Positions 16,997-58,912 of a stretch of DNA of 64,000 nucleotides are shown here, in pieces. Numbering within the stretch: position 1 is the stretch's first letter; each line of letters starts with the position of its first letter. This stretch comes from Bolinopsis microptera (taxonomy: Eukaryota; Ctenophora; Tentaculata; Lobata; Bolinopsidae). The notes beneath the pieces were generated by a model. It made no database searches. It saw only the letters and a program-made list of their open reading frames with translations, and was not told the DNA's origin. The position numbers and the translations under genes are program-made. Location of the stretch: contig NC_087084.1 of the NCBI RefSeq assembly GCF_026151205.1, positions 11,745,453 to 11,809,452 of the forward strand, given 5' to 3'.

Positions 16997-19900
16997 TTAT
17001 GCGTTGACGGGGCATTTATCAGCTCCACCACAGATAGTTGCAAGTTTCATTTCCTCAGAAGCGTAGGCAAACGAGCCCTTGCAGCTCATTCCGGTAAAAG
17101 AGAAGCTTTTCACGTCTCCGTATACCTCCGCACATTGTCTTGTCAGCTTCGAGGTGAACAAGATCTCACCCTCAACACTAAGCTCAACAACCCCATCGTT
17201 GATGGCAAAGCTCCAGCCAACAGTTCCCACAGGAAGTCCCTTAACCTTGTCCCGTATTCCTTCAGGTGTCTGACAGCGGAAACAGCCGGACATGGAGATC
17301 CTTTTCAAACTCCACTCGAACTGTCCGATTGAATCTCCATCACTATTATACATGACGATGGTCTTGACTTTTCTATTGTGGAGAAAGGAGCGTACTCCAA
17401 TACCTTTAGAGCTGGCGAGCCCACCAGTCAGCTTGACAGAGCATTCTGGGTTTGAACAGAAACCACATTCTGGAGTCCAGCAGTCGCAGGTCTTCTTACC
17501 ATCCGGGACTACTGGAACTGGGTCTACTAGGACTACTGGGACTACTGGCTCTGGGTCTACTGGGACAACTGGCTCTGGGTCTTCTGGGACTACTGGCTCT
17601 GGGTCTACTGGGACTACTGGCTCTGGATCTACTGGGACTACTGGCTCTGGGTCTACTGGGACAACTGGCTCCGGGTCTACTGGAACTACTGGCTCCGGGT
17701 CTTCAGGGACTACTGGCTCTGGGTCTACTGGGACAACTGGCTCCGGGTCTACTGGGACAACTGGCTCCGGGTCTACTGGGACAACTGGCTCTGGGTCCAT
17801 TGGGACAACTGGCTCCGGGTCTACTGGAACTACTGGCTCCGGGTCTACTGGGACTACTGGCTCTGGGTCTTCTGGGACTACTGGCTCTGGGTCTTCTGGG
17901 ACTACTGGCTCTGGGTCTACTGGGACTACTGGCTCTGGATCTACTGGGACTACTGGCTCTGGGTCTACTGGGACTACTGGCTCTAGATCTACTGGAACTA
18001 CTGGCTCTGGGTCTTCTGGGACTACTGGCTCTGGATCTACAGGAAATACTGGCTCTGGATCTTCTGGGACAACTGGCTCCGGGTCTACTGGAACAACTGG
18101 CTCCGGGTCTACTGGAACTACTGGCTCTGGATCAACTGGAACTACTGGCTCTGGATCTTCTGGGACTACTGGCTCTGGGTCTACTGGGACTACTGGCTCT
18201 GGATCAACTGGAACTACTGGCTCTGGATCAACTGAGACTACTGGGACTGGGTCTACTGGGACAACTGGCTCTGGGTCTACTGGGACAACTGGCTCTGGGT
18301 CTACTGGGACAACTGGCTCTGGATCTACTGGAACTACTGGCTCTGGGTCTTCTGGCTCTGGTGGCCCCCTTCGGCTTTCTTGATCCGTCACTTCTTTAAC
18401 TCTTTCACCCTTTTCTAAAAAATGATATTCTCATAACTTTTCTTTAATTTAATATAAAGTTCCCAAATCTGTCAAAGAGAATAAAGGGCAATGTTATTAA
18501 AAAGTTAAAACAACGTTGGAGTTTACTAATGCATTTACAAAAAGCTCGTAGTGATTAGTGGTTGATAAACATTAAATACTGGGTAAAAGTACTTCCTTAT
18601 ATACAATGTTAAAATTTCTTAATAAGTTAATAGTCTTAATAAACTCTGACTTAAACTTAATATTCTCATGATAAATGTGCTACTTACCAATTGTTTGTTT
18701 CCCTTTTCCTTTTCGGCGCTCAATATCTGATTTTCCTCCTCCTTTTTCCTCTGAATTAAAAATACATTCAAATCAGAGAAACTGACTTAAATTCGCTTTT
18801 TATCTTTGTTGCAATTCGTAAATCAAATCTCAATATTTCCATACTTCAAATATTTCAAATTTCAATAATGATTCTACGAACCTGCGCATTCTTCCTCGGA
18901 CTCATCTGACCCGTCGGTGCACTCTGCTTTACCATTACAGAAGAGTTTCTTAGGAACGCATTGTATACCGTCCGCACACTTCTTTTTGGCTGCCGGACAC
19001 TCGTAGGCTGGTAAAGTGATTATTCATTATTTATTATTTATTATTTATTATTTATTATTTATTATTTATTATTGATTTATAATTCATAATTCTAAATTTA
19101 TATAGCTTAATATTGTTGAAATAGTCCGCTTACCAGGACAGAAGGCAGGATCTTCATCCGACCCGTCGAGACATTGGATGCTACCGTCACACATTGTCCC
19201 TTTAGCGATACACTGGTTACCAGTGGCGCACTTTTTCGTGCCGATCCCGCATACACCCGATCCCGAAACTAGTTTGAACATAATAAATATGTTATATAAT
19301 ATATTTGTTATATTGGAGAAACGCAGTGCTGAACTAACTTGAACCTATGAAATCTGCCGTTTGATTGCGGAGCGTAAATATGGCAAATTAAAAATATTGT
19401 TAATATAACTAAGTTTAGTATGGAAAAGTACTTTTTTCACTTGGTTAAATATTATGTTCAATATTATGTCAAATATCTATTATACTAAGTGCTAACCATA
19501 GCAAATGTCGCGGCTCTCATCGGATCCGTCAGCACATTGCGTGCTACCATCGCACTTTCTCTGTAAGGAGGCACATCCATTTCCGTCAGCACATACCATT
19601 TCGCTTTCTTTACAAGTGCAGCCCACGTCATCGGACTTATCGTTACAGTGAGGAATTTTAAATTTATCACATTTTCCAGATGAAGGAAAACACTGGATTC
19701 CGTCCGCACACTTTTGCTGTTCAACGGGGCATTCAAAACCTGGTTGGGGTTTAAGTTACTGTATAGTACTTTTGTAGTACTATTTATGAATAAATCCTAA
19801 CCATTCAACACATAAAAACTATATTGAGGAATAACTCTGCATACTTGTGCAAAACTCCGCTGATTCATCAAAGCCATTTGAACACGCAGGACCTCCATTA

Positions 19901-22900
19901 CACAGACCACTGTTGGGAACACATTCGTCAATATCGCCACACTTTGTTTGTCCCTCCGGACATACGTACCCTGAAATTGTTGTTTTTGAAAATTATTCAC
20001 TTTTGAATCGAATAGCTGATCGTTTTTATACGCAGTGAGTAGTGACTACGTTATCGGACCTTATTTGGACGGACATTACTTGAACGCTGGAGGCCCTACC
20101 GTTCATCTTAATGTCCGTTCAAATAAAGTCCGTTCAATTAATGTCCGTCCAAGTTAAATTCCGTTAAAATTTTTTAGAAAATTTTTCCATTTCGAACTTT
20201 TGTCCAGAATATGACAACTTTGAGAACTTGATTGTGCCGTAAGTTAACGATGGAAAGGTTCTCCTTGGTCTGCCGGAGGCACAGAAAATTCTACTAGTTT
20301 ATGATGTTTTCAAGGGTCACTTGGCGGAAAAAAGTCAACGAAATTATGGCACTCAAGCAGCTTAAGATTCGAAGTACCCTTTTAGGGATGGTTCGCTTTT
20401 ATTTGAATATTGGATAAGTGTCAAAGTGTGTGCGGGTGGTGTTCACATACAATAGTTGCATTTCATTCACAGGAATTCCTTTCGAGCATCTGTGATGGGA
20501 CCTCATAAACGTATAGTAATACCAATTATTGTACAAATACTAAACTTTGCTTGTTGACGTCAGTATTTCAGTCTATGTTTATTCGCACACATTATTGCAT
20601 TTCTAAGATTAACATAAATTTCAGGATGAACCCCTTCGGTCCCTCCAATTTTTAGGAAACAACAACTTACTCCATGTGCAGTCACTTTCTTGTGTTCCTG
20701 ATCCAGAGGCTACCTCTTTGTCAGCTGGACATGCCGTGCAGGTAGAAGCTGCGTTTGCTGCTAAACTCCATTGATCTGCCGGACAGGCTTGACAGCCACT
20801 TGACTGATCCAGATACTGGCCCGCAACACAATCTTCTGCAAGTATAGTCGAGTTTAGTCAAGTATTTATAGAACTGCAAGTTTCAGCCGCTGGCAAGCAG
20901 CTTAAGATTCGAAGTACCCTTTTAGGGATGGTTCGCTTTTATTTGAATATTGGATAAGTGTCAAAGTGTGTGCGGGTGGTGTTCACATACAATAGTTGCA
21001 TTTCATTCACAGGAATTCCTTTCGAGCATCTGTGATGGGACCTCATAAACGTATAGTAATACCAATTATTGTACAAATACTAAACTTTGCTTGTTGACGT
21101 CAGTATTTCAGTCTATGTTTATTCGCACACATTATTGCATTTCTAAGATTAACATAAATTTCAGGATGAACCCCTTCGGTCCCTCCAATTTTTAGGAAAC
21201 AACAACTTACTCCATGTGCAGTCACTTTCTTGTGTTCCTGATCCAGAGGCTACCTCTTTGTCAGCTGGACATGCCGTGCAGGTAGAAGCTGCGTTTGCTG
21301 CTAAACTCCATTGATCTGCCGGACAGGCTTGACAGCCACTTGACTGATCCAGATACTGGCCCGCAACACAATCTTCTGCAAGTATAGTCGAGTTTAGTCA
21401 AGTATTTATAGAACTGCAAGTTTCAGCCGCTGGCAAGCAGCTTAAGATTCGAAGTACCCTTTTAGGGATGGTTCGCTTTTATTTGAATATTGGATAAGTG
21501 TCAAAGTGTGTGCGGGTGGTGTTCACATACAATAGTTGCATTTCATTCACAGGAATTCCTTTCGAGCATCTGTGATGGGACCTCATAAACGTATAGTAAT
21601 ACCAATTATTGTACAAATACTAAACTTTGCTTGTTGACGTCAGTATTTCAGTCTATGTTTATTCGCACACATTATTGCATTTCTAAGATTAACATAAATT
21701 TCAGGATGAACCCCTTCGGTCCCTCCAATTTTTAGGAAACAACAACTTACTCCATGTGCAGTCACTTTCTTGTGTTCCTGATCCAGAGGCTACCTCTTTG
21801 TCAGCTGGACATGCCGTGCAGGTAGAAGCTGCGTTTGCTGCTAAACTCCATTGATCTGCCGGACAGGCTTGACAGCCACTTGACTGATCCAGATACTGGC
21901 CCGCAACACAATCTTCTGCAAGTATAGTCGAGTTTAGTCAAGTATTTATAGTTGCAAGTTTCAGCCGCTGGCAAGCAGCTTAAGATTCGAAGTACCCTTT
22001 TAGGGATGGTTCGCTTTTATTTGAATATTGGATAAGTGTCAAAGTGTGTGCGGGTGGTGTTCACATACAATAGTTGCATTTCATTCACAGGAATTCCTTT
22101 CGAGCATCTGTGATGGGACCTCATAAACGTATAGTAATACCAATTATTGTACAAATACTAAACTTTGCTTGTTGACGTCAGTATTTCAGTCTATGTTTAT
22201 TCGCACACATTATTGCATTTCTAAGATTAACATAAATTTCAGGATGAACCCCTTCGGTCCCTCCAATTTTTAGGAAACAACAACTTACTCCATGTGCAGG
22301 CACTTTCTTGTGTTCCTGATCCAGAGGCTACCTCTTTGTCAGCTGGACATGCCGTGCAGGTAGAAGCTGCGTTTGCTGCTAAACTCCATTGATCTGCCGG
22401 ACAGGCTTGACAGCCACTTGACTGATCCAGATACTGGCCCGCAACACAATCTTCTGCAAGTATAGTCGAGTTTAGTCAAGTATTTATAGACTGCAAGTTT
22501 CAGCCGCTGGCAAGCAGCTTAAGATTCGAAGTACCCTTTTAGGGATGGTTCGCTTTTATTTGAATATTGGATAAGTGTCAAAGTGTGTGCGGGTGGTGTT
22601 CACATACAATAGTTGCATTTCATTCACAGGAATTCCTTTCGAGCATCTGTGATGGGACCTCATAAACGTATAGTAATACCAATTATTGTACAAATACTAA
22701 ACTTTGCTTGTTGACGTCAGTATTTCAGTCTATGTTTATTCGCACACATTATTGCATTTCTAAGATTAACATAAATTTCAGGATGAACCCCTTCGGTCCC
22801 TCCAATTTTTAGGAAACAACAACTTACTCCATGTGCAGTCACTTTCTTGTGTTCCTGATCCAGAGGCTACCTCTTTGTCAGCTGGACATGCCGTGCAGGT

Positions 22901-25900
22901 AGAAGCTGCGTTTGCTGCTAAACTCCATTCATCTGCCGGACAGGCTTGACAGCCAGTTGACTGATCCAGAGACTGGCCCGCAGCACAATCTTCTGCAAGT
23001 ATAGTCGAGTTTAGTCAAGTATTAGTTGCAAGTTTCAGCCGCTGGCAAGCAGCTTAAGATTCGAAGTACCCTTTTAGGGATGGTTCGCTTTTTATTTGAA
23101 TATTGGATAAGTGTCAAAGTGTGTGCGGGTGGTGTTCACATACAATAGTTGCATTTCATTCACAGGAATTCCTTTCGAGCATCTGTGATGGGACCTCATA
23201 AACGTATAGTAATACCAATTATTGTACAAATACTAAACTTTGCTTGTTGACGTCAGTATTTCAGTCTATTATGTTTATTCGCACACATTATTGCATTTCT
23301 ATTTCTAAGATTAACATAAATTTCAGGATGAACCCCTTCGGTCTCTCCAATTTTTAGGAAACAACAACTTACTCCATGTGCAGGCACTTTGTGATGTTCC
23401 TGATCCAGCGGCTACCCCTTTGCCAGCTGGACATGCCGTGCAGGTAGAAGCTGCGTTTGCTGCTAAACTCCATTCATCTGCCGGACAGGGTTGACAGCCA
23501 GTTGACTGATCCAGAGACTGGCCCGCAACACAATCTTCTGCAAGTATAGTCGAGTTTAGTCAAGTATTTATAGTTGCAAGTTTCAGCCGCTGGCAAGCAG
23601 CTTAAGATTCGAAGTACCCTTTTAGGGATGGTTCGCTTTTATATTTGAATATTGGATAAGTGTCAAAGTGTGTGCGGGTGGTGTTCACATACAATAGTTG
23701 CATTTCATTCACAGGAATTCCTTTCGAGCATCTGTGATGGGACCTCATAAACGTATAGTAATACCAATTATTGTACAAATACTAAACTTTGCTTGTTGAC
23801 GTCAGTATTTCAGTCTATTAATGTTTATTCGCACACATTATTGCATTTCTATTTCTAAGATTAACATAAATTTCAGGATGAACCCCTTCGGTCTCTCCAA
23901 TTTTTAGGAAACAACAACTTACTCCATGTGCAGGCACTTTGTGATGTTCCTGATCCAGCGGCTACCCCTTTGCCAGCTGGACATGCCGTGCAGGTAGAAG
24001 CTGCGTTTGCTGCTAAACTCCATTCATCTGCCGGACAGGGTTGACAGCCAGTTGACTGATCCAGAGACTGGCCCGCAACACAATCTTCTGCAAGTATAGT
24101 CGAGTTTAGTCAAGTATTTATAGTTGCAAGTTTCAGCCGCTGGCAAGCAGCTTAAGATTCGAAGTACCCTTTTAGGGATGGTTCGCTTTTATATTTGAAT
24201 ATTGGATAAGTGTCAAAGTGTGTGCGGGTGGTGTTCACATACAATAGTTGCATTTCATTCACAGGAATTCCTTTCGAGCATCTGTGATGGGACCTCATAA
24301 ACGTATAGTAATACCAATTATTGTACAAATACTAAACTTTGCTTGTTGACGTCAGTATTTCAGTCTATTATGTTTATTCGCACACATTATTGCATTTCTA
24401 TTTTCTAAGATTAACATAAATTTCAGGATGAACCCCTTCGGTCTCTCCAATTTTTAGGAAACAACAACTTACTCCATGTGCAGGCACTTTGTGATGTTCC
24501 TGATCCAGCGGCTGCCCCTTTGCCAGCTGGACATGCCGTGCAGGTAGAAGCTGCGTTTGCTGCTAAACTCCATTCATCTGCCGGACAGGGTTGACAGCCA
24601 GTTGACTGATCCAGAGACTGGCCCGCAACACAATCTTCTGCAAGTATAGTCGAGTTTAGTCAAGTATTTATAGTTGCAAGTTTCAGCCGCTGGCAAGCAG
24701 CTTAAGATTCGAAGTACCCTTTTAGGGATGGTTCGCTTTTTATATTTGAATATTGGATAAGTGTCAAAGTGTGTGCGGGTGGTGTTCACATACAATAGTT
24801 GCATTTCATTCACAGGAATTCCTTTCGAGCATCTGTGATGGGACCTCATAAACGTATAGTAATACCAATTATTGTACAAATACTAAACTTTGCTTGTTGA
24901 CGTCAGTATTTCAGTCTATTAATGTTTATTCGCACACATTATTGCATTTCTATTTTCTAAGATTAACATAAATTTCAGGATGAACCCCTTCGGTCTCTCC
25001 AATTTTTAGGAAACAACAACTTACTCCATGTGCAGGCACTTTGTGATGTTCCTGATCCAGCGGCTACCCCTTTGCCAGCTGGACATGCCGTGCAGGTAGA
25101 AGCTGCGTTTGCTGCTAAACTCCATTCATCTGCCGGACAGGGTTGACAGCCAGTTGACTGATCCAGAGACTGGCCCGCAACACAATCTTCTGCAAGTATA
25201 GTCGAGTTTAGTCAAGTATTTATAGTTGCAAGTTTCAGCCGCTGGCAAGCAGCTTAAGATTCGAAGTACCCTTTTAGGGATGGTTCGCTTTTTATATTTG
25301 AATATTGGAAAAGTGTCAAAGTGTGTGCGGGTGGTGTTCACATACAATAGTTGCATTTCATTCACAGGAATTCCTTTCGAGCATCTGTGATGGGACCTCA
25401 TAAACGTATAGTAATACCAATTATTGTACAAATACTAAACTTTGCTTGTTGACGTCAGTATTTCAGTCTATTAATGTTTATTCGCACACATTATTGCATT
25501 TCTATTTTCTAAGATTAACATAAATTTCAGGATGAACCCCTTCGGTCTCTCCAATTTTTAGGAAACAACAACTTACTCCATGTGCAGGCACTTTGTGATG
25601 TTCCTGATCCAGCGGCTACCCCTTTGCCAGCTGGACATGCCGTGCAGGTAGAAGCTGCGTTTGCTGCTAAACTCCATTCATCTGCCGGACAGGGTTGACA
25701 GCCAGTTGACTGATCCAGAGACTGGCCCGCAACACAATCTTCTGCAAGTATAGTCGAGTTTAGTCAAGTATTTATACTTTTATAGTTGCAAGTTTCAGCC
25801 GCTGGCAAGCAGCTTAAGATTCGAAGTACCCTTTTAGGGATGGTTCGCTTTTATTTGAATATTGGATAAGTGTCAAAGTGTGTGCGGGTGGTGTTCACAT

Positions 25901-28900
25901 ACAATAGTTGCATTTCATTCTGGAGGTCCTAGCGTTCACCTTAATGTCCGCTCAAACAAAGTCCGTTCAATTAATGTCCGTCCAAGTTAAAGTCCGTTGA
26001 ATGTTTTTCAAAAATTTTTCCATTTCGAACTTTTTGTCCAGAATATGACAACTTTTAATTTCAGTCAATTTTAATAGCATGATCACTATCTTGATCTAAA
26101 TTTGTTTGCCCATAATTAAATCTACGAGGGAAAAACAAAGCAATCACTTTTTTATTCCTAAATATACATTTCCGAAAGACTTTGAGCTTTTGAGGTTATT
26201 TTTAACGAGAATAATTGGGTAAATGATTATACGACAAGTAGTATACATAATGGTACTTATACCCCACCTAAAAATGGCGCACCTGTATTTGTGTGTAATT
26301 ACGTAATTTAACCCTAATTTGTGGTAATTTTTGCTAACCTTAATTGCTAATTGTATACACTAACCCTAATTGGGAGTGTTTACTCCTCATTAACATTTTG
26401 CTAATATGGGGAGACCTTACTATCACACTGGGGCTAACCCTAGATGACAATTATGTAGTGTGTGCTGTAACTTGAATGACTGCGTATGTTGCACGAGAAA
26501 CTATATACAATAGCTATTGTCAGAAGCTTTTAGGCACACCTGTTCATGTTATATAAAGGAGCAAGTGCTGAGGCAGCTTTGTGCACATCTAATTACAACT
26601 CTTATATTATGGCTATTAATGGAAAAGTCATTATTTGTAATACGGGAGTATCATGTAAGTGTTAACTTGTGACACACAGAAAGTTTTTTCTTGTTACCTT
26701 TTAGCTTTATAATAAGGACTAATGTTGACCTCTGGGAATATTTCTAAGTTGTCAGACCGTGAACTAAGAGAGGAGTTAATATAATAATCTGGGGCTAGTA
26801 CTGGCACTCCGAGGAAAGTATACGAGGTGCAAATGTTAAACCTTAACTTAGTAAAGTTTGATCTTCTGGATCAGGTTTAAGTCGAAAACTGACTCATGAT
26901 TGCATCCGTATGAATACTCAGGATGGCAAAGTCACAACACCTGTTGATGTGACAAAGGAATTAATCAGTTTTGATGAGTTGCACTTGAAATATCTTATCG
27001 ATCAAATTGGAGACAAATCTGACTATCTCATGATACGGCTGGGCATTGTTTGTGTGAGATAATGGTAAGATCGCTTGTAAGCAAAGGGTTCCAGCAAGGC
27101 GGGGATTCCCGCTAACTATAACAAAATAAGAGAGTATTCTCTCTAATTCCAAAAATTGAAAAATGACTGTTTGCAATTCAGACTGCTTCAATGTTATTAT
27201 CATCACTGATAATTATAATAATGAAACCACTAGTACTGAAAAATAAAAGGATTAAATTAGGTGGGAATTCCCACTATATTTAATATAATAGGAGAGCACT
27301 CTCTTCGTTTACTTTTTTTTCTAGTTATACTACTGTTTGAATTTACTTGTTATTCTATTTTAATTTTAAATATTATCTTATTACACATTTTGCTACTATC
27401 TTTTCTTGCTATCTATTTTTAAATGGTTAACCATACTTTTTTCTTTTTTTTTTTATTTTTGGGGAAAATTTGTCTTCCTCAGCTGGTCGTTACTTTATTT
27501 TTTAAATATTCTTATCATTTAAAACTTTGATCAGCTGCAGGGGGTAAATTTGCGTCAAGGTTCTGTAATATGAACCAGTTTTCACAGAAAAAAGACCGTC
27601 CGTAGGTGGTGAATAGCCACATCCTTCACGAGGTGACCCCGTTCTCTGCATTTTATTTTACCCTACTTTTTGACTTATATTTTTATTTTCCAATGCAGAG
27701 GTTACTAAATACGGCGGATCGGTTATAAAATACTTAGTACTATATAAAGGCTTAAAAACAGACCTCTTATCACAAAACTATTAGCATGAGCGAACTGACT
27801 TTTAATGTAACACGAGCCTTGAATGACTCTGTCATTGAATTTAAGGTTAGAGCCCCTGAAACACAGTTCAACGGAACCCCTGAAGAAGGGTTGGAGGTGC
27901 TCTTGGGGGGTGTTGACACGATAATAGAGCGCTTCATGCAACGACGGAACTGTTTCAAGTTCCATGTCACTTTGGACGGGGTATTTCAGGTATTTGATTT
28001 GCTACTAACAATCTGTTAAAATAGTGATAAGGAAATTTTCAAATCCAAAAGAAGTGGTTTAACAAGGAAAAAAATATAGATAAATAGAAGTTGATATATT
28101 TCATTTACAGAAACATATAAACGGTGAAGAGCAGACATTTGGTTTCAAGACACGAGCAACTGTGTGTCTGAGATCATCAAACAAGGATGAGATGATCAAT
28201 GAAGTTCGAAACAAAATCTTGGATTCATACGAGTCTTTTCAAGGAATGGGTTGGTAAAGTTTTCTAATTTTTATTTCATTAACCTCCAACTACCTTGACC
28301 CTAATCAAACCAAGTTGAGTTATGTTACAATTGCAGATACAAAGATTATTACAAATAATCTCAACAGGTAGCGGTTGGATATGGAGACGATGGCAAATGG
28401 TTACAGTGCTCGTCATAAAGTACAACCCTGTATCAGGATGATTGATTGAGTGATTGATTAGGGGTCTATATAGGGACCACTATAATGTTGAAAATTGTTG
28501 TTTTATATCTTACTAATTTCAATTAACTTTGAGAACTTTCAATAGTTTAAAACCAAAAATCAATAAAAAGAGTGATTGAAATTAAAAAATGTAGATAGAA
28601 GACATATTGCATTTAAGTTTGAATTATGACGTGATTTAAGAACATAATTATCCATGTTATATATAACACTCTATATAACATTATATAAACTCTCTTAAAT
28701 TCTAGAATGTCGACTTACTTGCCAACTCCCAAACTGCTGAAAAAGAGAAGATGTCTGTTGAACATACGGAATAAAGATGACCAATCATTCCTTTATTGTA
28801 TTGTGGCTGCTTTGAAAAGACCTGATAGAAACCCAACACGACCCGGATTCTATAAGCGTTATGTCAAGAAACTGATCACGACAGGTATATAAATTATCAG

Positions 28901-31900
28901 TGATGATAATAACATTGAAGCAGTCTGAATTGCAAACAGTCATTTTTCAATTTTTGGAATTAGAGAGAATACTCTCTTATTTTGTTATAGTTAGCGGGAA
29001 TCCCCGCCTTGCTGGAACCCTTTGCTTACAAGCGATCTTACCATTATCTCACACAAACAATGCCCAGCCGTATCATGAGATAGTCAGATTTGTCTCCAAT
29101 TTGATCGATAAGATATTTCAAGTGCAACTCATCAAAACTGATTAATTCCTTTGTCACATCAACAGGTGTTGTGACTTTGCCATCCTGAGTATTCATACGG
29201 ATGCAATCATGAGTCAGTTTTCGACTTAAACCTGATCCAGAAGATCAAACTTTACTAAGTTAAGGTTTAACATTTGCACCTCGTATACTTTCCTCGGAGT
29301 GCCAGTACTAGCCCCAGATTATTATATTAACTCCTCTCTTAGTTCACGGTCTGACAACTTAGAAATATCCCCAGAGGTCAACATTAGTCCTTATTATAAA
29401 GCTAAAAGGTAACAAGAAAAAACTTTCTGTGTGTCACAAGTTAACACTTACATGATACTCCCGTATTACAAATAATGACTTTTCCATTAATAGCCATAAT
29501 ATAAGAGTTGTAATTAGATGTGCACAAAGCTGCCTCAGCACTTGCTCCTTTATATAACATGAACAGGTGTGCCTAAAAGCTTCTGACAATAGGTATTGTA
29601 TATAGTTTCTCGTGCAACATACGCAGTCATTCAAGTTACAGCACACACTACATAATTGTCATCTAGGGTTAGCCCCAGTGTGATAGTAAGGTCTCCCCAC
29701 ATTAGCAAAATGTTAATGAGGAGTAAACACTCCCAATTAGGGTTAGTGTATACAATTAGCAATTAAGGTTAGCAAAAATTACCACAAATTAGGGTTAAAT
29801 TACGTAATTACACACAAATACAGGTGCGCCATTTTTAGGTGGGGTATAAGTACCATTATGTATACTACTACGACAATAATTGTTTTATCGAGAACATCAT
29901 AGTGTCGTATGTTAACGACGAAAAGGTTCTCCTTGGTCTGCCGGAGGCACAGAAAACTTTTCTAGTATATGATGTTTTCAAGGGTCACTTGACGGAAAAA
30001 GTCAACGAAATTATAGAACTCAACAACATAGTTTATGAGCTAGTTCCCGCCAACAAGACTAACTTGTTTCACATTTCAACCTCTAAATATTACGGTAAAT
30101 CGTGTTGCCAAGGACATTGTCCGACGTTGTTATAGTTCATATTACTCAGGGGAGGTAATGAAACAAATAAGTGCTGGGAAAGCTCCACGTGATGTTAAGG
30201 TTAACCTTAAGTTGTCTAATATAAAACTAATTCACGCTGAATGGGTGGTAAAAGTTTACACTGAAATGCAGGACCGAGGTAGTTTGATAAAAAAATGTTT
30301 CCAAAAAGCGGGTATTACTGATGCTTTAACTTTAAGCATGGAATATTTAATGCCCGAAAACCCATTTGATGAAGATGATATGTGATATAAGACAATAATC
30401 ATGTACACATATTTTAACATGTTTACTGATTAAAGACTGCTTTTCTTGCTTTCTGTATGAAAAATGGATTTAAAAATCATTTGCTAAAATTTAAAAAACG
30501 TAAAAAAAGATGAAAAAATTCAGATTTTTGATGGTTTTGATTGCCTTCTAGCGTTCATATTAATGTCCGTTCACACTTATGTCCGTTCAAGTAATGTCCG
30601 TCCAAATAAGGTCCGATAAGGTAACTTCAAAATTTGGTTTATTTTTAAGATTTTGTAGGGTCTCTAACACTAATACGTTGAAATAAACAAAAATCCAAAT
30701 AATTTGTATGAACTGCATGCATTGAATTTTTTTATAGATTGTGATTATATAATTTGACCAAAACCCATAATCATGGGTAGAGTGGACCGCTGCCAGTGTC
30801 TCTCTTTCCCAAACAAAAGGAAATGATATTAATTTGATTGACCGTTTTCAAATGCAAAATGATACCGAGAATGAAATCGGTCGCTCGCTTTTCCCATTCA
30901 TTCACGGCTTATACGAATTGCAGGTGTGCCCCCTCGGGCAGAACCACCTGGGGCACACCTGGGGCACACCTGGGGCACATCTCGGGCACATCTCGGGCAC
31001 ATCTCGGGCACATCTTGGGCAAAACCACCCAGGCGGTTCTGCCCGAGGTGTGCCCGAGGTGTGCTTTCTGCCCGAGATGTGCCCGAGATGTGCCCCAGGT
31101 GTGCCCGAGTGTGCCCGAGGTGTGCCCCAGATGTGCATCGGCAGATTACCGAGTTACCTAAGATGTGAAGCTGTACTAAAGCGTTTTCTGAAGTTTCATG
31201 TATTGTTTCTTTCAATTCGTATAAAGTTTTACTCGATCATAACACGGCAATAAAATTAACCAAACATTTTTCTAATTAATAAACTAACCTAGTACTCTTA
31301 GTCCAAGAGAAGAACAAGTGTATATTCCCGGTTGTGGGTCACAAAATGTGTCGCATTGACCATCTGGATAGTAGTTAGATTGGCAGTCTTGACAATCGGA
31401 TCCCACTTTCTTTCCAACACAGGTCTTCCTTCCGTTAGAATCACAGGTGTAGCTTCCACTGACAGGCTTACAGTATGTGCTACACTGTGACCCGTAGTAG
31501 TTTAGTATGCAATCAGCACAGCCTGTGCCAGTGAATCCAGGGTTGCAACTTAACAGTCTGTAGTACACTGTTAACCGTCCACCACCACTACGATAAGTTG
31601 TTGAATAACTATGACCAATGATGGTGTTTTCAAATGTGAGAGCCATATTGCTCATGGTTCTAATATGGTCGTCATATTTGACATCCTTGTCCCATACCTC
31701 CATGGAGAGATACACATTCAAGTTGGATGGAAGGTCCACTGTTGCTGTGACAGATGGGTAGTATGTTTGGCTATCTTGTGTAAAACTGGTTGAACCTCTG
31801 TGGAACAGCACATTACCATTGGAACTTATTTTAACATTTCTAAAAAAGAAATCACAATCAGACCACCCGCCCAACCATGAATAGTCACAATCATCATATG

Positions 31901-32328
31901 AGTCGTAATACTTGTAGAACTTTATTTCCCCCCTTGCTGCACAATCCACTGTTTCCTGTAAGGAATTGAGCACTGATGTTACTAATGTTATCTAAAGATA
32001 TATCCAGAGAAACGGTCAAGCTTTTACATCGATTCCATTGGTTGGCCCATAGATAACAGTATTAACACTGTAAAACTGTAAAACTGTCTCTACTTAGCTT
32101 ATACAATTTTTAGGTAAAGCTATAAACATGAGAGATATTACTGATATAAATGTGACATCAATCGACACAATATACTGAGCCATTGTATTACCCAATGGAC
32201 AGTGGACACAAAGAAATCCAATGTGTTTAATAAAACTCAGTAATATCTTAGAAGAATTTAAACAATCTTTATACACATACCAATCTTAAAATCAGTGCAG
32301 CAGCCAGAAGAAGAAATTTTCTGCCCAT
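16997..32328 (-). CDS. Secreted modular protein: DSL-like head, ten Cys-rich repeats, five LDLa modules, Pro-rich repeat, unknown C-terminal domain
   Basis: Exons on the minus strand: 32281-32328, 31289-31955, ten of 165 nt (25577-25741, 25025-25189, 24473-24637, 23923-24087, 23373-23537, 22828-22992, 22289-22453, 21751-21915, 21211-21375, 20671-20835), 19845-19970, 19497-19739, 19134-19268, 18882-19007, 18688-18750 and 16997-18414. All phases match and the total is 1491 codons plus TAA. Residues 1-16 are a hydrophobic signal peptide (MGRKFLLLAAALILRL). Residues 17-239 are a C2/MNNL-like domain and DSL-like Cys-rich loops. Residues 239-788 are ten 55-residue repeats, 789-998 five LDLa modules, 999-1019 a basic linker, about 1028-1325 PEPVVPVD repeats and 1326-1491 a Cys-containing domain I do not recognise. 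There is no obvious membrane helix, so it is probably extracellular: adhesion, matrix or recognition (inference). I know no protein with this exact architecture. Confidence 0.85.
17507..18360 (-). repeat. Coding 24-bp minisatellite (PEPVVPVD repeats)
   Basis: About 35 units of 24 bp stay in frame and encode Pro-Glu-Pro-Val-Val-Pro-Val-Asp, with Val/Glu and occasional Ser, Phe, Met or Leu variants. Many differences between units are silent. It sits in the last exon of the modular gene, between the basic linker and the C-terminal domain, and would form an extended acidic, proline-rich stalk. The unit length being a multiple of three lets copy number change without breaking the frame. Confidence 0.9.
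18882..19970 (-). other. Exon block encoding five LDL-receptor class A modules
   Basis: Exons 19845-19970, 19497-19739 (two modules), 19134-19268 and 18882-19007 all start and end in phase 1. Each module shows the six-Cys LDLa layout. Calcium-binding acidic endings are seen in most: CNDKSDDVGC, CADGSDESRDIC, CLDGSDEDPAFC and CTDGSDESEEEC. The first module (exon 19845-19970) has SNGFDESAEFC, where the usual DGSDE is NGFDE. In the LDLa family these acidic residues hold calcium and form ligand-binding surfaces. Confidence 0.9.
19019..19073. repeat. (TTTATTA)n microsatellite
   Basis: About seven tandem TTTATTA units in the intron between LDLa exons 18882-19007 and 19134-19268. Confidence 0.9.
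20052..20352 (+). mobile_element. Left end of a pogo-like element with a transposase scrap
   Basis: It begins TTATCGGACCTTATTTGGAC, the complement of the sequence ending near 30622, followed by repeated AATGTCCGT and AAGTCCGTTC motifs. From about 20215 the plus strand reads KVLLGLPEAQK then VYDVFKGHL. Both match the transposase fragment at 29890-30385, and this copy carries a stop and a frameshift. It is cut off at 20352, exactly where the tandem exon array begins. Confidence 0.65.
20353..25920 (-). repeat. Tandem array of ten exon-plus-intron units (538-552 bp)
   Basis: Ten complete units and a truncated eleventh. Each carries one 165-nt exon with a TGCAG acceptor and a GTAAGT donor, phase 1 at both ends. 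None has a stop or indel in the exon. The encoded repeat has six Cys (C-x11-C-x2-C-x14-C-x2-C-x15-C) with cores ACPAD and TCTACPA, like TNFR/GCC2-GCC3-type ephrin-receptor-like repeats. Exon starts are 540 bp apart for the three leftmost units, which look identical. Spacing rises to 545-552 bp on the right, where exons share a diverged version (EWSLAAN, KGVAAGSGTSQSAC). Copies 4 and 5 are intermediate. The outer edges abut pogo-like sequence on both sides. Confidence 0.95.
25921..26228 (+). mobile_element. Second copy of the pogo-like left end
   Basis: From TGGAGGTCCTAGCGTTCACC onward this matches 20088-20230 (repeated TTAATGTCCG and AAGTCCGTT motifs, then CCAGAATATGACAACTTT). It directly adjoins the truncated last unit of the exon array. 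The terminal 30-40 bp of the element are missing here but present at 20052. From about 26050 the match to the first copy is lost. Confidence 0.6.
26229..29872. mobile_element. 3.6-kb palindromic element with about 990-bp arms
   Basis: The left arm 26229-27218 and right arm 28888-29872 are near-identical in inverse orientation, e.g. ATTATCAGTGATGATAAT near 28890 against its complement near 27200; the same 81-codon open frame occurs at 26961-27206 (minus) and 28900-29145 (plus). The outer ends read GTAGTATACATAATGGTAC and its complement. The 1.67-kb centre carries a plus-strand gene fragment (27786-28885). The element lies in the second intron of the modular gene and inside or next to pogo-like sequence. 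No short terminal target duplication was made out. Confidence 0.75.
27786..28885 (+). pseudogene. Polinton (Maverick)-associated protein, N-terminal fragment
   Basis: Exons with splice borders: 27786-27989 (starts MSELTFNVTRALNDSVIEF), 28111-28249, 28368-about 28437 and about 28706-28885. The exon 2/3 junction gives GSGW, and exon 3 ends near KYNPVSG without a clear GT donor. Exon 4 reads YLPTPKLLKKRRCLLNIRNK then DDQSFLYCIVAALKRPDRN. The order GSGW, KY.P..G, LP..L..K, NI.NxD..F..(W/C), AAL.P is what I remember of proteins beside or fused to the family-B polymerase of Polinton-like elements in cnidarians and arthropods. Only this N-terminal portion is present, and no polymerase motif is seen. 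It is cut by the right arm of the palindrome and therefore broken. Confidence 0.5.
29890..30385 (+). pseudogene. pogo/Tigger-type DDE transposase, C-terminal part, frameshifted
   Basis: It reads KVLLGLPEAQKTFLVYDVFK, then VYELVPANKTNLF. After a shift of frame near 30075-30085 it continues DIVRRCYSSYYSGEVMKQIS and NIKLIHAEWVVKVYTEMQ, then a KKAGIT-like end and an acidic tail (ENPFDEDD). Known pogo/CENP-B-like DDE proteins have a D(V/A)F.G..T..V segment, a P.N.T.LFQPLD block and an L.P.HA.W(I/V) block in this order. The N-terminal DNA-binding part is absent, replaced by the palindromic element. A second, shorter copy lies at 20215-20350. Confidence 0.75.
30546..30622 (+). mobile_element. Right terminal sequence of the pogo-like element
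   Basis: It contains repeated AATGTCCGTTCA-like motifs and ends CAAATAAGGTCCGATAA, the complement of the start at 20052. Motif copies face inward as at the left end. Confidence 0.65.
30925..31157. repeat. Dispersed GTGCCCGAG minisatellite, copy 1 (one intact end)
   Basis: Tandem 10-11-bp units TGTGCCCGAG(A/G) or TGTGCCCCAG in both orientations around a centre. It ends on the right with GGCAGATTACCGAGTTACC, a sequence shared by the other copies. The left end is truncated. It lies in the second intron of the modular gene. Open frames such as CARGVPEVCPRC are by-products. Confidence 0.85.
31289..31955 (-). other. Exon encoding the C2/MNNL-like and DSL-like head of the modular protein
   Basis: Phase 0 start (CCTTACAG acceptor), phase 1 end. 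The first half is beta-rich with WSDCDFFFRNVKISSNGNV and MEVWDKDVKYDDHI, reminiscent of the C2-type N-terminal domain of Notch ligands. The second half has closely spaced Cys: CNPGFTGTGCADC, NYYGSQCSTYC, YTCDSNGRKTCVGKKVGSDC and a second NYYP-x-GQCDTFC loop. This resembles DSL/EGF-type modules, especially the Y.Cd..G...C pattern. The assignment to the Notch-ligand class is inference; EGF repeats proper are absent. Confidence 0.6.
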
Positions 32329-32975
32329 TTTTTCTTCGAATGGCCAGAGTTTGACCGCGTCACCACGAGTAACTTTGATTATATTTATAATTTAAGTATA
32401 TTTTAGTTAAATAAGTGCTTACGATCAAATTGAGATTAACTAAACAGAAAGTGTTTCAACAGCCAACATCAAAAAGTTTCGTGGCAAAACGAGGAACAAA
32501 GATCGAAAGTTAGATTTTGCTACAGTTTCTCTGTCGAGAGATGACACCTGTTGAGCGTGATTGTACGATTAGTTTTGATTGAACTGGTGAAAAACGAAAT
32601 GGCAACGATAACTGAATAGTGAATACTTATAGAGGATTTCATAGACCATATTGAATCTGTAAAAATCATGATTAGTCACCACCGCAGAGGATATTTAAAA
32701 ACCTTATAATCATATTTGTGACTCGTGATTGGAGTAATTCATCCGTAAATGCTAAATTTCATTCATTCCTTGTCCGACTTATTAAATCGTCTCATCTCAT
32801 CGGGTAATACCACTCACCTGACCCAGTGATTGTACCAGGCGTACCTCACTCCCTGGCAACAGCAAAACAAACCTATTCAACACCGAGACAGGAGTATTAC
32901 TCTAATAAATCAAACTAATAATCGAGTTCTTAGAAATCTCGAAAGTTGAATATTTGGTTTTGTTGGATCTGTGCC

Positions 32976-33235
32976 ATGCAAAATGGTCCACAGGAACTCC
33001 CTCAGACCAAGCCCAAGCCAATTGAATTATTTACAAATTTAGCAACACGAAATTATCCAAGGGTATGAATACCAAGTTGGAATGACATCAACGACATCCT
33101 TACAAAGTTACAACAATACAACTATTACGATTCAAGTGTGGTAGTTATTCAGATGGAAGTTTTGGAGGAGAAGTATGCCAACGACGTGAAGAATAACGGT
33201 AGTCTATCGAAGCGTGAGAATTATTTAACGTTTTA
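32976..33235 (+). pseudogene. Small unrecognised reading frame interrupted by one TGA
   Basis: ATG at 32976 gives MQNGPQELPQTKPKPIELFT... for 30 codons, then TGA at 33066-33068. The same frame continues for about 55 codons (WNDINDILTKLQQYNYYDSS, VVVIQMEVLEEKYANDVKNN) to TAA. A further open stretch after an acceptor (TAATTTGCAG, about 33316) reads FFIEFGVELGMEFVMHVEGS. It lies divergently about 650 bp upstream of the modular gene. It could be a dying gene, a misread base, or a longer gene with an unrecognised intron. No family is recognised. Confidence 0.3.
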
Positions 33236-33491
33236 ATGTAATTTATTAATGTGGTTGAGTTTGTAATATTTATATTATATATAACATGATAATATTAAGT
33301 CCTAGTTAATTTGCAGTTCTTCATAGAATTTGGAGTGGAGTTGGGGATGGAATTTGTAATGCACGTAGAAGGGTCGAACTTCTTAGACGTCAATCTCACA
33401 AGTGAAATTCTGTACATAATTATAAACTTTAAAAGGTGAAATCATGAACAACTGTTTCAGTTTGGCAAATATCATACGTACAAGCAATAAT

Positions 33492-33982
33492 AACTGGTAA
33501 CTCGGTAATCTGCCGATGCACATCTGGGGCACACCTCGGGCACACTCGGGCACACCTGGGGCACATCTCGGGCACATCTCGGGCAGAAAGCACACCTCGG
33601 GCACACCTCGGGCAGAACCGCCTGGGTGGTTTTGCCCAAGATGTGCCCGAGATATGCCCGAGATGTGCCCGAGATGTGCCCCAGGTGTGCCCCAGGTGTG
33701 CCCCAGGTGGTTCTGCCCGAGGTGTGCTTTTTGCCCGAGATGTGCCCGAGATGTGCCCCGGGTGTGCCCAAGTTCTTTTCCCAAGGTTTTCCAATTACCA
33801 TGCCCGAATTTTGCCCGAGATGTGCCCGAGGTGTGCCCGAGGTGTGCCCCAGGTGGTTCTGCCCAAGGTGTGCCCGAGGTGTGCTTTCTGCCCGAGATGT
33901 GCCCGAGGTGTGCCCGAGGTGTGCCCGAGTTTGTGCCCGAGGTGTGCCCGAGGTGTGCCCCAGATGTGCATCGGCAGATTAC
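33492..33982. mobile_element. GTGCCCGAG minisatellite element, copy 2 (both ends intact)
   Basis: The left end reads GGTAACTCGGTAATCTGCC and the right end GGCAGATTACCGAATTATCC, flanking about 450 bp of TGTGCCCGAG-type units that face each other across the middle. The sequence GCCGATGCACATCTGGGG next to each end is shared with the other copies. No clear target-site duplication is seen. Confidence 0.8.
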
Positions 33983-34164
33983 CGAATTATCCACATAAAT
34001 TAAATAATAAATAATGTCAACATACACTGAGGAGTACCTAAAGTTGAGGACTGATGACAACCTTGGATTAGTCATATGGGACTAATGGATGAACTATCGG
34101 ATAAACTAATAACTTAAGGGGGGCACATACCATTCTCCTAAACAGATACTGTGGCCTGGTGATG

Positions 34165-36618: not shown

Positions 36619-37805
36619 TATATAATATATATATGTAATATAAATATAATACAGGGAACACAGTATTCGTCCGAATTTCATTTTTAGATTTTGCACATTT
36701 AATTATATAATGTAATTTTACTCCCTCCAAACGTTTATGGGAATCGTGCAGAAAGCCCAATAACGGTATCCTAGCACCCTGTCACGTGATTAGCGATTAG
36801 GTAATCATTGATTACCCAATCAAATCTAGAACCTTCTACGACATTCAGATTCAGAAGTCGTTTTATTAGCGGAGATTCAATGCGGTAAAAAAGTGGGAAA
36901 TAGTGGCTATTCTTTAAAAATTTCGAGAATTGTACTAGTCCAAAATATTGAAAGTGAAAATGTTCACAAAATTTATTAAAATTAGTTCATCATACGTTTT
37001 ACGTAATTATAAACATTTTTTATCAGACTATATTTTTGAAATATTTGGAAAAAATTTCTAATAGTAATTATTTAATCGATTAATTAAATAATTTCTTTAT
37101 TAAAAGTCGTTAAAAAAAGTTTTTCTTCTTTGTTTTCTAACGCACACTGCTTTAAACTAGAATCTTTTTAGATATTCAGAAGTTGACTTATTTGCGGAAA
37201 ATCAATGTGGTAAAAAGGTGGTAAACAAGACGTGGTAATTGTGGATTTTGCAAACACATTTGAAAAGCACAAGAATAATGCAAAATATTGAGGGGTCCGG
37301 TTAAGCTAAGTTAGGGATAATATATAGTGATATATACCCCCGAATGTCTATACTATATGTTATGAACATAATAACCTGGGGTCCCCAGATAATGGCAGTA
37401 TTTGAGTTGGTTTACTGATCCTTATCATATCATATCTGTGTTTAAAAAATATATATTTTTCGGTAATCTGCCGATGCACATCTGGGGCACACCTCGGGCA
37501 CACCTGGGGCACAAACTCGGGCACACCTCGGGCACACCTAGCGGCACAAACTCGTGCACACCTCGGGCACACCTGGCGCACAAAGCACACCTCGGGCACA
37601 CCTCGGGCAGAACCACCTGGGCACATCTCGGGCACACCTCGGGCACACCTCGGGCAGAACCACTTGGGCACATCTCGGGCACACCTCGGGCAGAACCACC
37701 TGGGGCACATCTCGGGCAAAACCACCTGGGGCACGGTCATTCGGGCAATATGAATTATGGCTAGGCTACTAACCTCAATGATATCATTTACTACCTACTT
37801 ATATT

Positions 37806-38011: not shown

Positions 38012-38400
38012 CTAATCAAAAATCCTACGCATCAACTGCGGGAGCTCCTGGTTAAAATATCTTCTGACGGAAGGGCCGGAGCGGGTCAGGTGGTTCCTTC
38101 TCAGCCAGAGGGCGATGAAGAGGGCTGAGGAGTCTCTTCGCGTCCTGTCATGTCCTCGTAGCATATGCCTCTTGGCGTGAAACCACATGCCCTCACATGT
38201 ATTCGTATGAACACCGGTGACGGGGTCGACGAAGCCTCTGCTGTGGTTTACGACCAAGTGGGTGTAGCCGTGGTGTCGGAGGGCGTTGTACCCCTTCCAC
38301 TTGTCGGTAAGGATGATAGTCCCAGGAGTGACGAGTTGCTTGATTAGACGAAGAAGAGTGTGGTGGTTCAGTTTGTTGTCTGTGCACTCCACCAAGAAGG
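38012..38400 (-). pseudogene. Merlin (IS1016/ISXO2-like) transposase, C-terminal part
   Basis: It reads TFLVECTDNKLNHHTLLRLI, IILTDKWKGYNALRHHGYTH, VNHSRGFVDPVTGVHTNTCE and MWFHAKRHMLRG, ending MRRIFD. ISXO2/Merlin transposases share T-D-x-W-x-G-Y, then VNHS..FVDP..G.HT..(I/C)E..W, which provide the later catalytic Asp and Glu. The N-terminal third is missing: upstream of TTFLVE the frame runs straight into minisatellite units. It is therefore not functional on its own. Confidence 0.85.
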
Positions 38401-39474
38401 TGGTGCCCCAGGTGGTTCTGCCTGAGGTGTGCCCGAGGTGTGCTTTGTGCCCGAGGTGTGCCCGAGGTATGCCCGAGGTGTGCCCGAGGTGTGCCCCAGG
38501 TGTGCCCGAGGTGTGCCCCAGATATACCCGAGATGTGCCCGAGATGTGCCCCGGGTGTGCCCAGGTTGTTTTCCCAAGGTTTCCCAATTACCATGCCCGA
38601 GGTGTGCCCGAGGTGTGCCCCAGGTGGTTCTGCCCGAGGTGTGCCCGAGGTGTGCTTTGTGCCCCAGGTATGCCCCAGGTGTGCCCGAGGTGTGCCCCAG
38701 GTGTGCCCGAGGTGTGCCCCAGATATACCCGAGATGTGCCCGAGATGTGCCCCGGGTGTGCCCAGGTTGTTTTCCCAAGGTTTCCCAATTACCATGCCCG
38801 AGGTGTGCCCGAGGTGTGCCCCAGGTGGTTCTGCCCGAGGTGTGCCCGAGGTGTGCTTTGTGCCCCAGGTATGCCCCAGGTGTGCCCGAGTTTGTGCCCC
38901 AGGTGTGCCCGAGGTGTGCCCCAGATGTGCATCGGCAGATTACCGAGTTACCGTGGAGTGATCTCATTTCATACTAATTCTCATCGTTTTTACCATATTA
39001 AGCTATATCCCTCCAATGGATCCTCTCGTAAAAGTTAAAATACCTCGTTTCAAGTTCAACAGTTTTTTCTGGTATGATCCGAGCGTGAACATAACAGTAG
39101 GATGATTTTATTTGATTAGATCTGTGTATGTAGAGGATTCCTCTCACATGAACTTGAAGGTATATTAGAGTATTAGTATTGCAGCTGCGGGTAATGTTCT
39201 ATGTACATTATAGTATTATTACCTAGCATATAATATAAGTTACCAGTCTAGGCCAGATAATAAAAATATGCAATGATCGTCATGTCTCATGAAGATCAAA
39301 TTACCGATGAGTAAATTAAGACTGACACTGGATAGTTTTGTCATTATTTGAATAAACTCCACGTATTGTGATTTATATCATATGTAGTTCTTGTACGCAT
39401 AATTTATTTCTAGGAATATTTTTACAAATTTGTACTAGCAATATTGAGTGATTCGAGTGATTCAAGTGATTTAA

Positions 39475-57609: not shown

Positions 57610-58660
57610 CCTGCTACGAGGATAAACACAACCAAAGTAACAAAAGTTAGTATGATATGTGATTGTGCGTGTTGTGCTGATAAGGCTTTGATTGAGCGAT
57701 GTTACAGTTTTTGAAAATAAACATATTACATGTGCACATAAAAACATTTGATAAACATTAGCACACTACAGTAATGTGTACCTTTTTTCGCTCTTGTGAG
57801 TGGGTGCATCATATTTCATTTTTGGAAGTCTCCTAAGTGAGAGTCTCCTACAATCAAATATTAGCATATCGCATTAGGCACCGGATGATATCAGAGTTGA
57901 AGTATTAAATCAGATTTCAGAGCGTACAGATTACAGGGTGTTCAAAAATATTGCAAGGATGTACTTTTGAATAACTCTTTTTCCACTAGGATTGCAGACT
58001 AGGATCAGCTACTACAAAAGTAAACTGCAGTTAAGACAAATGACTTGATTTTGTGAAAAGTTATTGGTAGTTCTAAGGTTTAATGGCTAATTTTGAGTTA
58101 TATTTTTCTCGAAGAAATATGGGCAATTTATTCCTTTGTCCTATAATATGGCACACCAAACCATAACGTTTTCCTTGGAATTTACTTTGGAAAAACCTGC
58201 ATGCGCAGTGAGCTAGTAAATTGACGATGATTGAAGTCAAAATTGTGAAACAGTACCAAGGATTAATTAAGTAAATCACCCAAATTTGCCTCGGTAGCTA
58301 GGGCACTGATTGTGGTTACTATGGGGCCATGGCAACGTGTTATCGAGTTACAAGACCTTGATTTTAGAATTAAATCCCACCAAACTTGCATAATATCGAA
58401 GATCCCCTGTACTTTAAAGTAATGCTTACGACGTTTGTGAAATCATTCTTAATGGTGAATAATGGAATTATCAAATAAATGAAATGGAAAATGGTCTCAA
58501 AAAGTCGAAAAATGTGACTAAAATTGTTGTAGACTAAAAATTTGCAAAATTTGTGACTTAAATTATGGTAACCAAATTTATTGTGAACCAAATTTATTGG
58601 CCCTAAGGTAATAAGAGCAGAAGGCTCAGTCTGCTCAATAATAAAAAATACTGACAATAA
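57610..58660. other. Gene-free stretch
   Basis: No supported gene or repeat boundary is seen between the LINE fragment and the minisatellite copy. Confidence 0.4.
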
Positions 58661-58667
58661 ATAAATC

Positions 58668-58912
58668 GAGATGTGCCCGAGATGTGCCCAGGTTCTTTTC
58701 CCAAGGTTTCCCAATTACCATGCCCGAATTTTGCCCGAGATGTGCCCGAGATGTGCTCGAGGTGTGCCCGAGGTGTGCCCCAGGTGGTTCTGCCCGAGGT
58801 GTGCCCGAGGTGTGCTTTGTGCCCGAGGTGTGCCCCAGGTGTGCCCGAGTTTGTGCCCCAGGTGTGCCCGAGGTGTGCCCCAGATGTGCATCGGCAGATT
58901 ACCGAGTTACCA
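58668..58912. repeat. GTGCCCGAG minisatellite, copy 5 (right end intact)
   Basis: The same units and the same terminal GGCAGATTACCGAGTTACC as copies 1 and 4, and the same internal TTTCCCAATTACCATGCCC block. The left end is truncated in plain sequence. Confidence 0.85.

Follow-up and report, generated by a model that had tools for sequence, protein, structure and literature searches.

The window, as the whole analysed stretch of 64,000 nucleotides is called here, contains on its minus strand a predicted gene with exons of the LDLa type (host gene), one intron of which holds a tandem array of ten exons encoding a putative cysteine-rich domain (CRD) flanked by pieces of a transposable element. 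The features are as follows.

16997..18414, minus strand: terminal exon with the (PVDPEPV)n minisatellite, the C-terminal domain and the stop codon
18688..18750, minus strand: short charged linker exon, predicted from splice sites and open frame only
18882..19007, minus strand: LDLa exon 5 (PF00057, E 9.7e-10)
19134..19268, minus strand: LDLa exon 4 (PF00057, E 8.6e-7)
19497..19739, minus strand: LDLa exon 2-3 (PF00057, E 5.3e-9, two stretches)
19845..19970, minus strand: LDLa exon 1, the exon that follows the array downstream, acceptor in phase 1 (PF00057, 22.9 bits, just below the 24.1-bit cut-off)
20047..20048, no strand: left TA target-site duplication
20047..20353, plus strand: left piece of the non-autonomous element, with the 40-bp inverted end and element positions to about 310 (304/309 identical to the C1 copy)
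20049..30621, no strand: whole insertion (pieces of the pogo-type element, CRD exon array and nested element), delimited by the TA target duplication and by empty paralogue sites
20354..25920, minus strand: tandem array of ten CRD units and a 116-bp partial unit
20671..20835, minus strand: CRD exon of unit 1, type A
21211..21375, minus strand: CRD exon of unit 2, type A
21751..21915, minus strand: CRD exon of unit 3, type A
22289..22453, minus strand: CRD exon of unit 4, type A
22828..22992, minus strand: CRD exon of unit 5, A/B hybrid
23373..23537, minus strand: CRD exon of unit 6, type B
23923..24087, minus strand: CRD exon of unit 7, type B
24473..24637, minus strand: CRD exon of unit 8, type B
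25025..25189, minus strand: CRD exon of unit 9, type B
25577..25741, minus strand: CRD exon of unit 10, type B
25921..26229, plus strand: first part of the right element piece, its start lying some 40 bp into the element (314/315 identical to C1 over 25921-26236)
26238..29868, no strand: nested element of younger age, its arms (about 978 bp) perfectly complementary, with the 8-bp target duplication TACGACAA
29877..30621, plus strand: second part of the right element piece, ending in the right inverted end, with a remnant transposase frame (753/756 identical to C1 over 29870-30625)
30622..30623, no strand: right TA target-site duplication
31159..33493, minus strand: stretch that contains the DSL exon, 95.6% identical to a C1 locus, with TGCCCGAG-repeat elements at both bounds
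31289..31955, minus strand: upstream DSL exon, donor in phase 1 (PF01414, E 4.8e-10; 96% protein identity to C1:23359560-23360240)

The ten exons of 165 nt are confirmed as real: none of the copies contains a stop codon, all are in phase 1-1 and the acceptor CTTGCAG and the donor GTAAGTTG are common to all ten, as an earlier note on this DNA had read them. The repeat unit comprises one intron and one CRD exon, and the identity of the units to unit 2 (93.6-100%) is far above chance expectation. The spacing of the exons measured 535-560 bp, not the 538-552 bp given previously, and the gradual change along the array described there proved to be a step, with units 1-4 of type A, units 6-10 of type B and unit 5 a hybrid of the two. 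An assembly artefact is judged unlikely; the same junctions are found on C1, and the insert is missing from four paralogues of the host gene.

The domain search with the repeat that the earlier note had proposed, done with three joined copies against Pfam, gave two matches above the cut-offs: TNFR_ELAPOR1_6th (PF23091, E 1.5e-15, 57.3 bits, cut-off 33.2) and Ephrin_rec_like (PF07699, E 1.9e-7, 31.2 bits, cut-off 23.1). The profile of the CRD matched the solved ELAPOR1 in the PDB at 1.4e-6, and a phmmer search of the PDB with the three joined CRDs gave no match. Six cysteine positions are invariant, each with a single residue, across 62 distinct intact CRD exons. The exon is accordingly classified by its sequence as encoding a TNFR/ELAPOR1-like CRD.

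The earlier location holds for the array proper (20354-25920) but took no account of the transposon pieces on both sides, which are parts of a larger insertion of 20049-30621. The inverted ends of 40 bp (20047-20086 and 30584-30623) are 98% identical, and the flanking pieces are assigned to a non-autonomous pogo-type element, the left one (20047..20353) matching the start of an intact 885-bp element at C8:15508936-15509820. At least 39 full-length matches, the query included, were found for this family among the best 40 scored of 1,666 candidates. Homology to a transposase was seen as a DDE_1 match of 23.2 bits (cut-off 22) in the homologous stretch L010:5621-5854 and weakly in the window's own homologous stretch (E 0.042); three genomic DDE_1 matches fall within element copies, and long open copies of PF03184 are present in the genome. 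The Pfam search of the element frame at 30044-30382 gave no transposase match.

The insert is missing in all four paralogues of the host gene, with the flanks abutting in P1, P2 and P3 and lying 37 bp apart in P4, as read from the letters for P2 and P3 and from match positions alone for P1 and P4. P3 reads GTGAC-TA-ACTTC and the window GTGAC-TA-[insert]-TA-ACTTC, and such a TA target duplication with an empty site fits Pack-TIR elements, the TA duplication also fitting pogo/Tigger. The array is thus placed within a single DNA-transposon insertion on the evidence of its ends and target site.

The empty paralogue sites refute as the origin the repeated tandem duplication of an exon of the gene itself, which the earlier note had assumed. 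In favour of such duplication, C1 has a DSL exon followed by tandem CRD exons in five units of 306 bp, and a single CRD exon precedes LDLa exon 1 in both P2 and P3. Against it, the array exon shares only 36-42% identity with the CRDs of P2 and P3 across the aligned part, its units are 97% identical to the best-matching one on C8 and reach 99.8% with those on C3 and C4, and a TA-flanked insertion holds the whole array. We regard such an origin as extremely improbable; an increase from two to ten units may nevertheless have occurred in place.

C1 carries a composite with inner junctions identical to those of the window and two CRD exons, its outer element pieces being 98.4-99.7% identical to those described here. 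Among the best 40 scored candidates of each search the full-length left junction was found in at least two places and the right junction in at least five, of which those at C5:23480842 and C8:12403421 are older; the arrays on C2, C3, C4, C10, C11 and C12 were not among these matches, and element copies or ends adjoin the CRD arrays on C11 and C12. The nested element (26238..29868) is missing from the C1 and C8 copies. The overlap of the left and right element pieces (to about position 310 and from about position 41) is unexplained by simple composite transposition.

The insertion lies in the sense orientation within a phase-1 intron of the LDLa-type gene. Because the insert agrees with the intron in strand and phase, the predicted model, DSL-CRDx10-LDLa-(PVDPEPV)n-terminal domain with five LDLa, reads in one open frame of 1,475 codons in which every junction past the DSL exon is in phase 1. 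This agrees with the earlier statements that 1-1 exons keep the frame and that the gene is a cysteine-rich multidomain one of the extracellular type. The C-terminal domain (17000-17401) gave nothing significant in the Pfam search. Neither the CRD exon of P2 and P3 nor their first exon was found in the host gene of the window, and its new start is putative; the gene could therefore be a pseudogene, and both the inclusion of the CRD exons in the host transcript and their function are inferred. The insertion might accordingly be an inert intronic one whose CRD exons are skipped or whose host gene is dead, with intactness reflecting youth and function elsewhere. The element pieces are just 0.3-1.6% diverged from C1, which leaves little time for decay, many CRD units are broken on C4 and C12, and the exons absent relative to P2 and P3 would fit as well. 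This account, which we rate as rather unlikely while giving it more weight than the other alternatives, is opposed by the fit of strand and phase on both sides with the long open frame, and by splice-site pairs intact in every CRD exon.

The ten exons belong to a genome-wide family of CRD exons with signs of positive selection. In the exon, 11 sites separate types A and B, every one of them replacement and none silent, against 6/372 intron sites (p 2.4e-4), an intron count that depends on the representatives chosen, being 2/372 for units 1 and 6 of the window (exon against intron, p 7.6e-5) and 5/374 for units 1 and 10. Type A and C11 differ by 16 replacement and no silent changes, with 7/364 in the intron (p 2.4e-6). 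When the pairs of eight groups were compared (11 of the 28 at first, later all, the pairs not being independent of one another), replacement sites changed faster than silent and intron sites taken together at p<0.05 in 21 of 28. The ratio was at most 1.0 in four: C10-C12b (0.67), C10-C2 (0.88), C12b-C2 (1.00) and A-C3, in which the exons are identical. The quotient of replacement to silent changes was 1.04-1.78 in 13 of the 15 pairs joining C10, C12b or C2 with one other group, and lower for C2-C12a (0.86) and for C10, C12b and C2 among themselves (0.67-0.98). In those 13 pairs, then, silent sites outpace introns too, and part of the exon excess may come from conversion from divergent exons or from constraint on introns.

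The units for the trees were drawn from 105 near-full-length ones, of which 79 had the searched splice context and 70 were 165 nt long without stops, 62 of them distinct. Parsimony counts on these 62 gave 0.88-1.67 changes per site at codon positions 1+2, 0.54-0.56 in introns and 0.41-0.65 at codon position 3. The control, three degenerate array groups (28 units), showed 8.9-11 exon indels per unit and exon/intron ratios of 0.87-1.52 (1.37 and 1.52 in two of them, not 1), in comparison with 0-0.5 indels and ratios of 2.3-15.6 in nine intact groups. The comparison left out, as having almost no changes from the reference, the young C4 group (ratio 0 for its 7 units) and units 1-4 of the window (ratio 3.4 from a handful of changes); hybrid unit 5 was in neither window group.

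These rates bear on the possibility that a 540-bp tandem-repeat family spreads like a satellite by ectopic recombination, its coding potential being incidental. The arrays on C4 and C12 are large and partly degenerate, that on C3 exceeds 20 units, and type-A units are near-identical among C3, C4 and the window, all as such spread would have it. An untranslated repeat, however, predicts similar rates in exons and introns, roughly as in the broken arrays, whereas in the intact ones replacement sites outpace introns, the six cysteines are kept and exon indels are nearly nil; we hold this explanation to be improbable. The same exon-versus-intron test supports the earlier suggestion that the domain is of a recognition type. 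Other loci are the probable place of origin of the A/B difference; the test therefore shows that such exons act somewhere, not that they do so in this gene.

The reading that we favour, and consider probable, is that a CRD cassette entered the gene of a secreted protein by transposition and that the array afterwards gained units or exchanged them. Mobilisation of the exons would have relied on the joint use of the outer inverted ends of the two element pieces that enclose them; the composite now sits at a TA within the intron of the LDLa-type gene. Unequal exchange may then have enlarged the array to ten units, starting from two of type B such as the sister copies have, and arrays resembling those on C3 and C4 may have contributed type-A units. 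Once spliced in, the CRD exons would form an extracellular cysteine-rich rod for recognition or binding, in which selection would have favoured changed residues. The earlier reading is thus retained in part: the array, the frame, the extracellular cysteine-rich gene and a young array with unit exchange stand, and the origin within the gene and the gradual change do not. At this locus a gene seems to have acquired protein domains from a mobile element in the recent past. More tentatively, and with considerable doubt, CRD cassettes with their own splice sites could form a mobile exon system, spread among genes of extracellular proteins by transposition and ectopic exchange, with arrays growing and shrinking and residues positively selected; if true, the system would generate receptor or adhesion diversity fed by transposons, at a stage so young that the empty sites are still readable.

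The extracellular proteins of animals are held to be products of exon shuffling, but the vehicle that carried a given module can seldom be seen. In this one genome the carrier can be read together with its target duplication, the empty sites, the sister copy, the agreement of phases and the diversification signature, and the route by which an inserted transposon leads to a new domain architecture therefore becomes directly testable. Arrays of the Dscam type likewise consist of tandem symmetric exons for an extracellular recognition module, used as alternative exons; unlike them, the copies in the window are very similar, the array is transposon cargo and mutually exclusive choice is not indicated. 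By its Pfam and PDB profile matches the repeat shares a domain family with the ELAPOR1 and ephrin-receptor-like CRDs, and ten consecutive CRDs beside DSL and LDLa modules do not make the architecture of an ELAPOR1 orthologue.

In metazoan exon shuffling, symmetric 1-1 extracellular modules enter extracellular genes without loss of frame (PMC8001218), and the CRDs of the window are such modules with the frame kept. That source speaks of intronic recombination; the event described here appears recent, its carrier being identified as a TIR element with target duplication. Among the titles and abstracts listed by the literature search there was no report of such a composite or of transposon-borne tandem arrays of 1-1 exons. 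Animal Pack-TIRs are described as TIR DNA transposons with captured host sequence, some of it exonic and some multicopy by transposition (Tan et al. 2021, PMC8277862); the captures have a median size of 224 bp, some of the elements are chimeric with host genes, and the fly family Ssk-FB4 has signatures of positive selection. The window resembles them in a TIR element that carries exonic cargo with such a signature. The chimeras named in that article include, besides Ssk-FB4, retained-intron, UTR or non-coding ones, in contrast to the present cargo of tandem complete internal exons with splice sites, phase-matched to the host intron on both sides. The case would thus be a capture of the Pack-TIR type, a known kind, of which the phase-matched tandem exon cassette with a signature of diversification is a variant.

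The array of cysteine-rich domain (CRD, TNFR/ELAPOR1-like) exons in the window is the cargo of a transposon. The composite that carries it (20049-30621) comprises:

20354-25920, minus strand: ten 165-nt CRD exons, with a unit (one intron and one CRD exon) every 535-560 bp
20047-20086 and 30584-30623: a 40-bp inverted pair bracketing the array
26238-29868: a nested younger element with perfectly complementary arms of ~978 bp and an 8-bp target duplication

Acceptor and donor are identical in 10/10 CRD exons, all exons are phase 1-1 with zero stops, and each encodes a 55-residue domain with six cysteines. A domain search with three joined copies recovered TNFR_ELAPOR1_6th (E 1.5e-15) and Ephrin_rec_like (E 1.9e-7), and the CRD profile (21 rows) matched solved ELAPOR1 chains at 1.4e-6. 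The sequence between the inverted ends and the array consists of pieces of one 885-bp element, intact on another contig of the same genome (C8:15508936-15509820; such contigs are labeled C1-C12) and represented by 39 full-length genome matches, including the C8 copy itself, among 40 scored of 1,666 candidates. Since a DDE_1 fragment above cut-off lies in a stretch homologous to the element and three DDE_1 genome matches fall inside its copies (C9:11109680, C9:5719721 and C10:12228033), the element is derived from a pogo-type transposon. Elsewhere in the window, a Merlin-type DDE_Tnp_IS1595 transposase fragment (38015-38587, E 9.7e-13) lies amid stretches of an 11-bp TGCCCGAG repeat, which appear again at ~30932-31158, 33496-33990, 37400-37760 and 58600-58980, and a plus-strand open frame of 593 aa (45085-46863), near-identical repeats in its first part, resembles C2H2 zinc fingers by eye.

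The LDLa part of the host gene has four paralogues (P1-P4) on the same contig. P3 reads GTGAC-TA-ACTTC where the window has the entire insert with a TA copy on either side; P2, also read in letters, is empty and lacks ~13 flank bases. By match positions only, the two flanks are one base apart in P1 and 37 bp apart in P4, where the right flank begins with 26 unmatched bases. The insert is therefore absent from all four paralogues.

A two-unit version of this composite, complete with the inner junction on either side, lies at C1:6298949-6301535, its outer pieces being 98.4%, 99.7% and 99.6% identical to those of the window. Beyond the inverted ends the compared stretches of window and C1 have no common sequence, which argues for movement of the composite through its outer ends. 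Among 40 scored candidates for each junction, the left one is full length at two places (window and C1) and the right one at five (window, C1 and C8 at 99-100%; C8:12403421 and C5:23480842 at 88-89%). C8 has the right junction as in the window and an intact left element whose right end abuts unit sequence. Several kilobases around the composite are common to C1 and C8, and these two copies count as one older insertion; both are free of the nested element. Arrays on C11 and C12 also have element copies or ends next to them.

In a tree of units, in which the near identity of the units leaves many nodes with low support, window units 1-4 (type A) group with the C3 and C4 arrays and units 6-10 (type B) with C1 and C8, while unit 5 is mixed. 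Two B units may have come first, the array then growing and acquiring A units through exchange with other contigs. The opposite order is the alternative; the sister copies on C1 and C8 have type B units only, so the B-first order is the simplest. The arrays of CRD units at C4:3311782-3324157 and C4:3450001-3455161 (stretches L023, L024 and L033) have young units along one side, followed by broken ones; no unit match was found in C4 3324158-3330000, and scattered CRD matches between the two arrays suggest a possible relic as long as 143 kb. Tandem CRD arrays also come in a second form, seen at C1:23357705-23359196 (stretch L031), where a DSL exon precedes five CRD exons with a unit length of 306 bp; further CRD matches, at ~275-bp spacing, lie at C6:2044256-2046259 and C7:3879434-3882088.

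Exons of types A and B differ by 11 replacement and 0 silent changes, against 6/372 intron differences between group representatives (p 2.4e-4; 2/372 between window units 1 and 6). The corresponding values are 16, 0 and 7/364 for A and C11 (p 2.4e-6) and 8, 0 and 5/364 for B and C11 (p 0.0032). Replacement exceeded silent plus intron change (p<0.05) in 21 of the 28 non-independent pairs of eight groups, and the ratio was <=1.0 in four. The clean signal, with silent change none or nearly none, lies among A, B, C3, C11 and C12a. In pairs with C10, C12b or C2 silent change also exceeds intron change and replacement/silent is 0.67-1.78, so that conversion from divergent exons or intron constraint may add to the signal there. 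Parsimony on 62 distinct intact units, with trees that ignore recombination between units, gave 0.88, 0.41 and 0.555 changes per site at positions 1+2, position 3 and intron with the tree of whole units; with the intron tree the values were 1.67, 0.65 and 0.54. Nine intact groups have exon/intron ratios of 2.3-15.6 with 0-0.5 exon vs 1.7-7 intron indels per unit; degenerate control arrays (C4 old, 13 units; C4b, 8; C12a old, 7) have ratios of 1.37, 0.87 and 1.52, respectively, with 8.9-11 exon indels per unit. The main objection to our reading is that this selection is one on the exon family, which need not involve the host gene.

Upstream of the insert lies a DSL exon (PF01414) with a phase 1 donor and downstream an LDLa exon (22.9 bits, slightly below cut-off) with a phase 1 acceptor; joining the predicted exons, DSL exon to stop, yields 1,475 codons in one open frame. 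The DSL exon sits in a 2.3-kb segment with TGCCCGAG-repeat elements at both edges; a C1 locus matches this segment at 95.6% identity and there has the DSL exon ahead of five CRD exons in 306-bp units. The CRD exon and the signal-peptide-like exon (by eye) of P2 and P3 were not found in the window. The host gene, whose start is putative, therefore seems to be a chimera that combines three sources on the same strand. Its predicted terminal exon contains a 24-bp minisatellite of 34 copies (17533-18355) coding for (PVDPEPV)n. A ~160-aa domain in genome stretch L010 (2734-3324), related by eye to the C-terminal domain of the window gene, matches none of the Pfam families above cut-off and has 143 genome matches among 150 scored of 218 candidates.

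Starting from what is observed directly, the insertion with its ends, its absence from the paralogues and its sister copy, we propose that the outer ends of two element pieces were used jointly, that the array grew and exchanged units, that the ten CRD exons would be spliced into the host transcript and that the resulting rod may have a binding role. Taken as a whole, this reading of a transposon-borne CRD cassette appears fairly probable to us.

That TIR elements in animals can capture host sequence is already described (PMC8277862), and 1-1 modules are the rule in metazoan exon shuffling (PMC8001218). What sets the window apart is its cargo, internal exons that come as a ready-made tandem cassette, agree with the host intron in strand and phase, and bear a signature of diversification.
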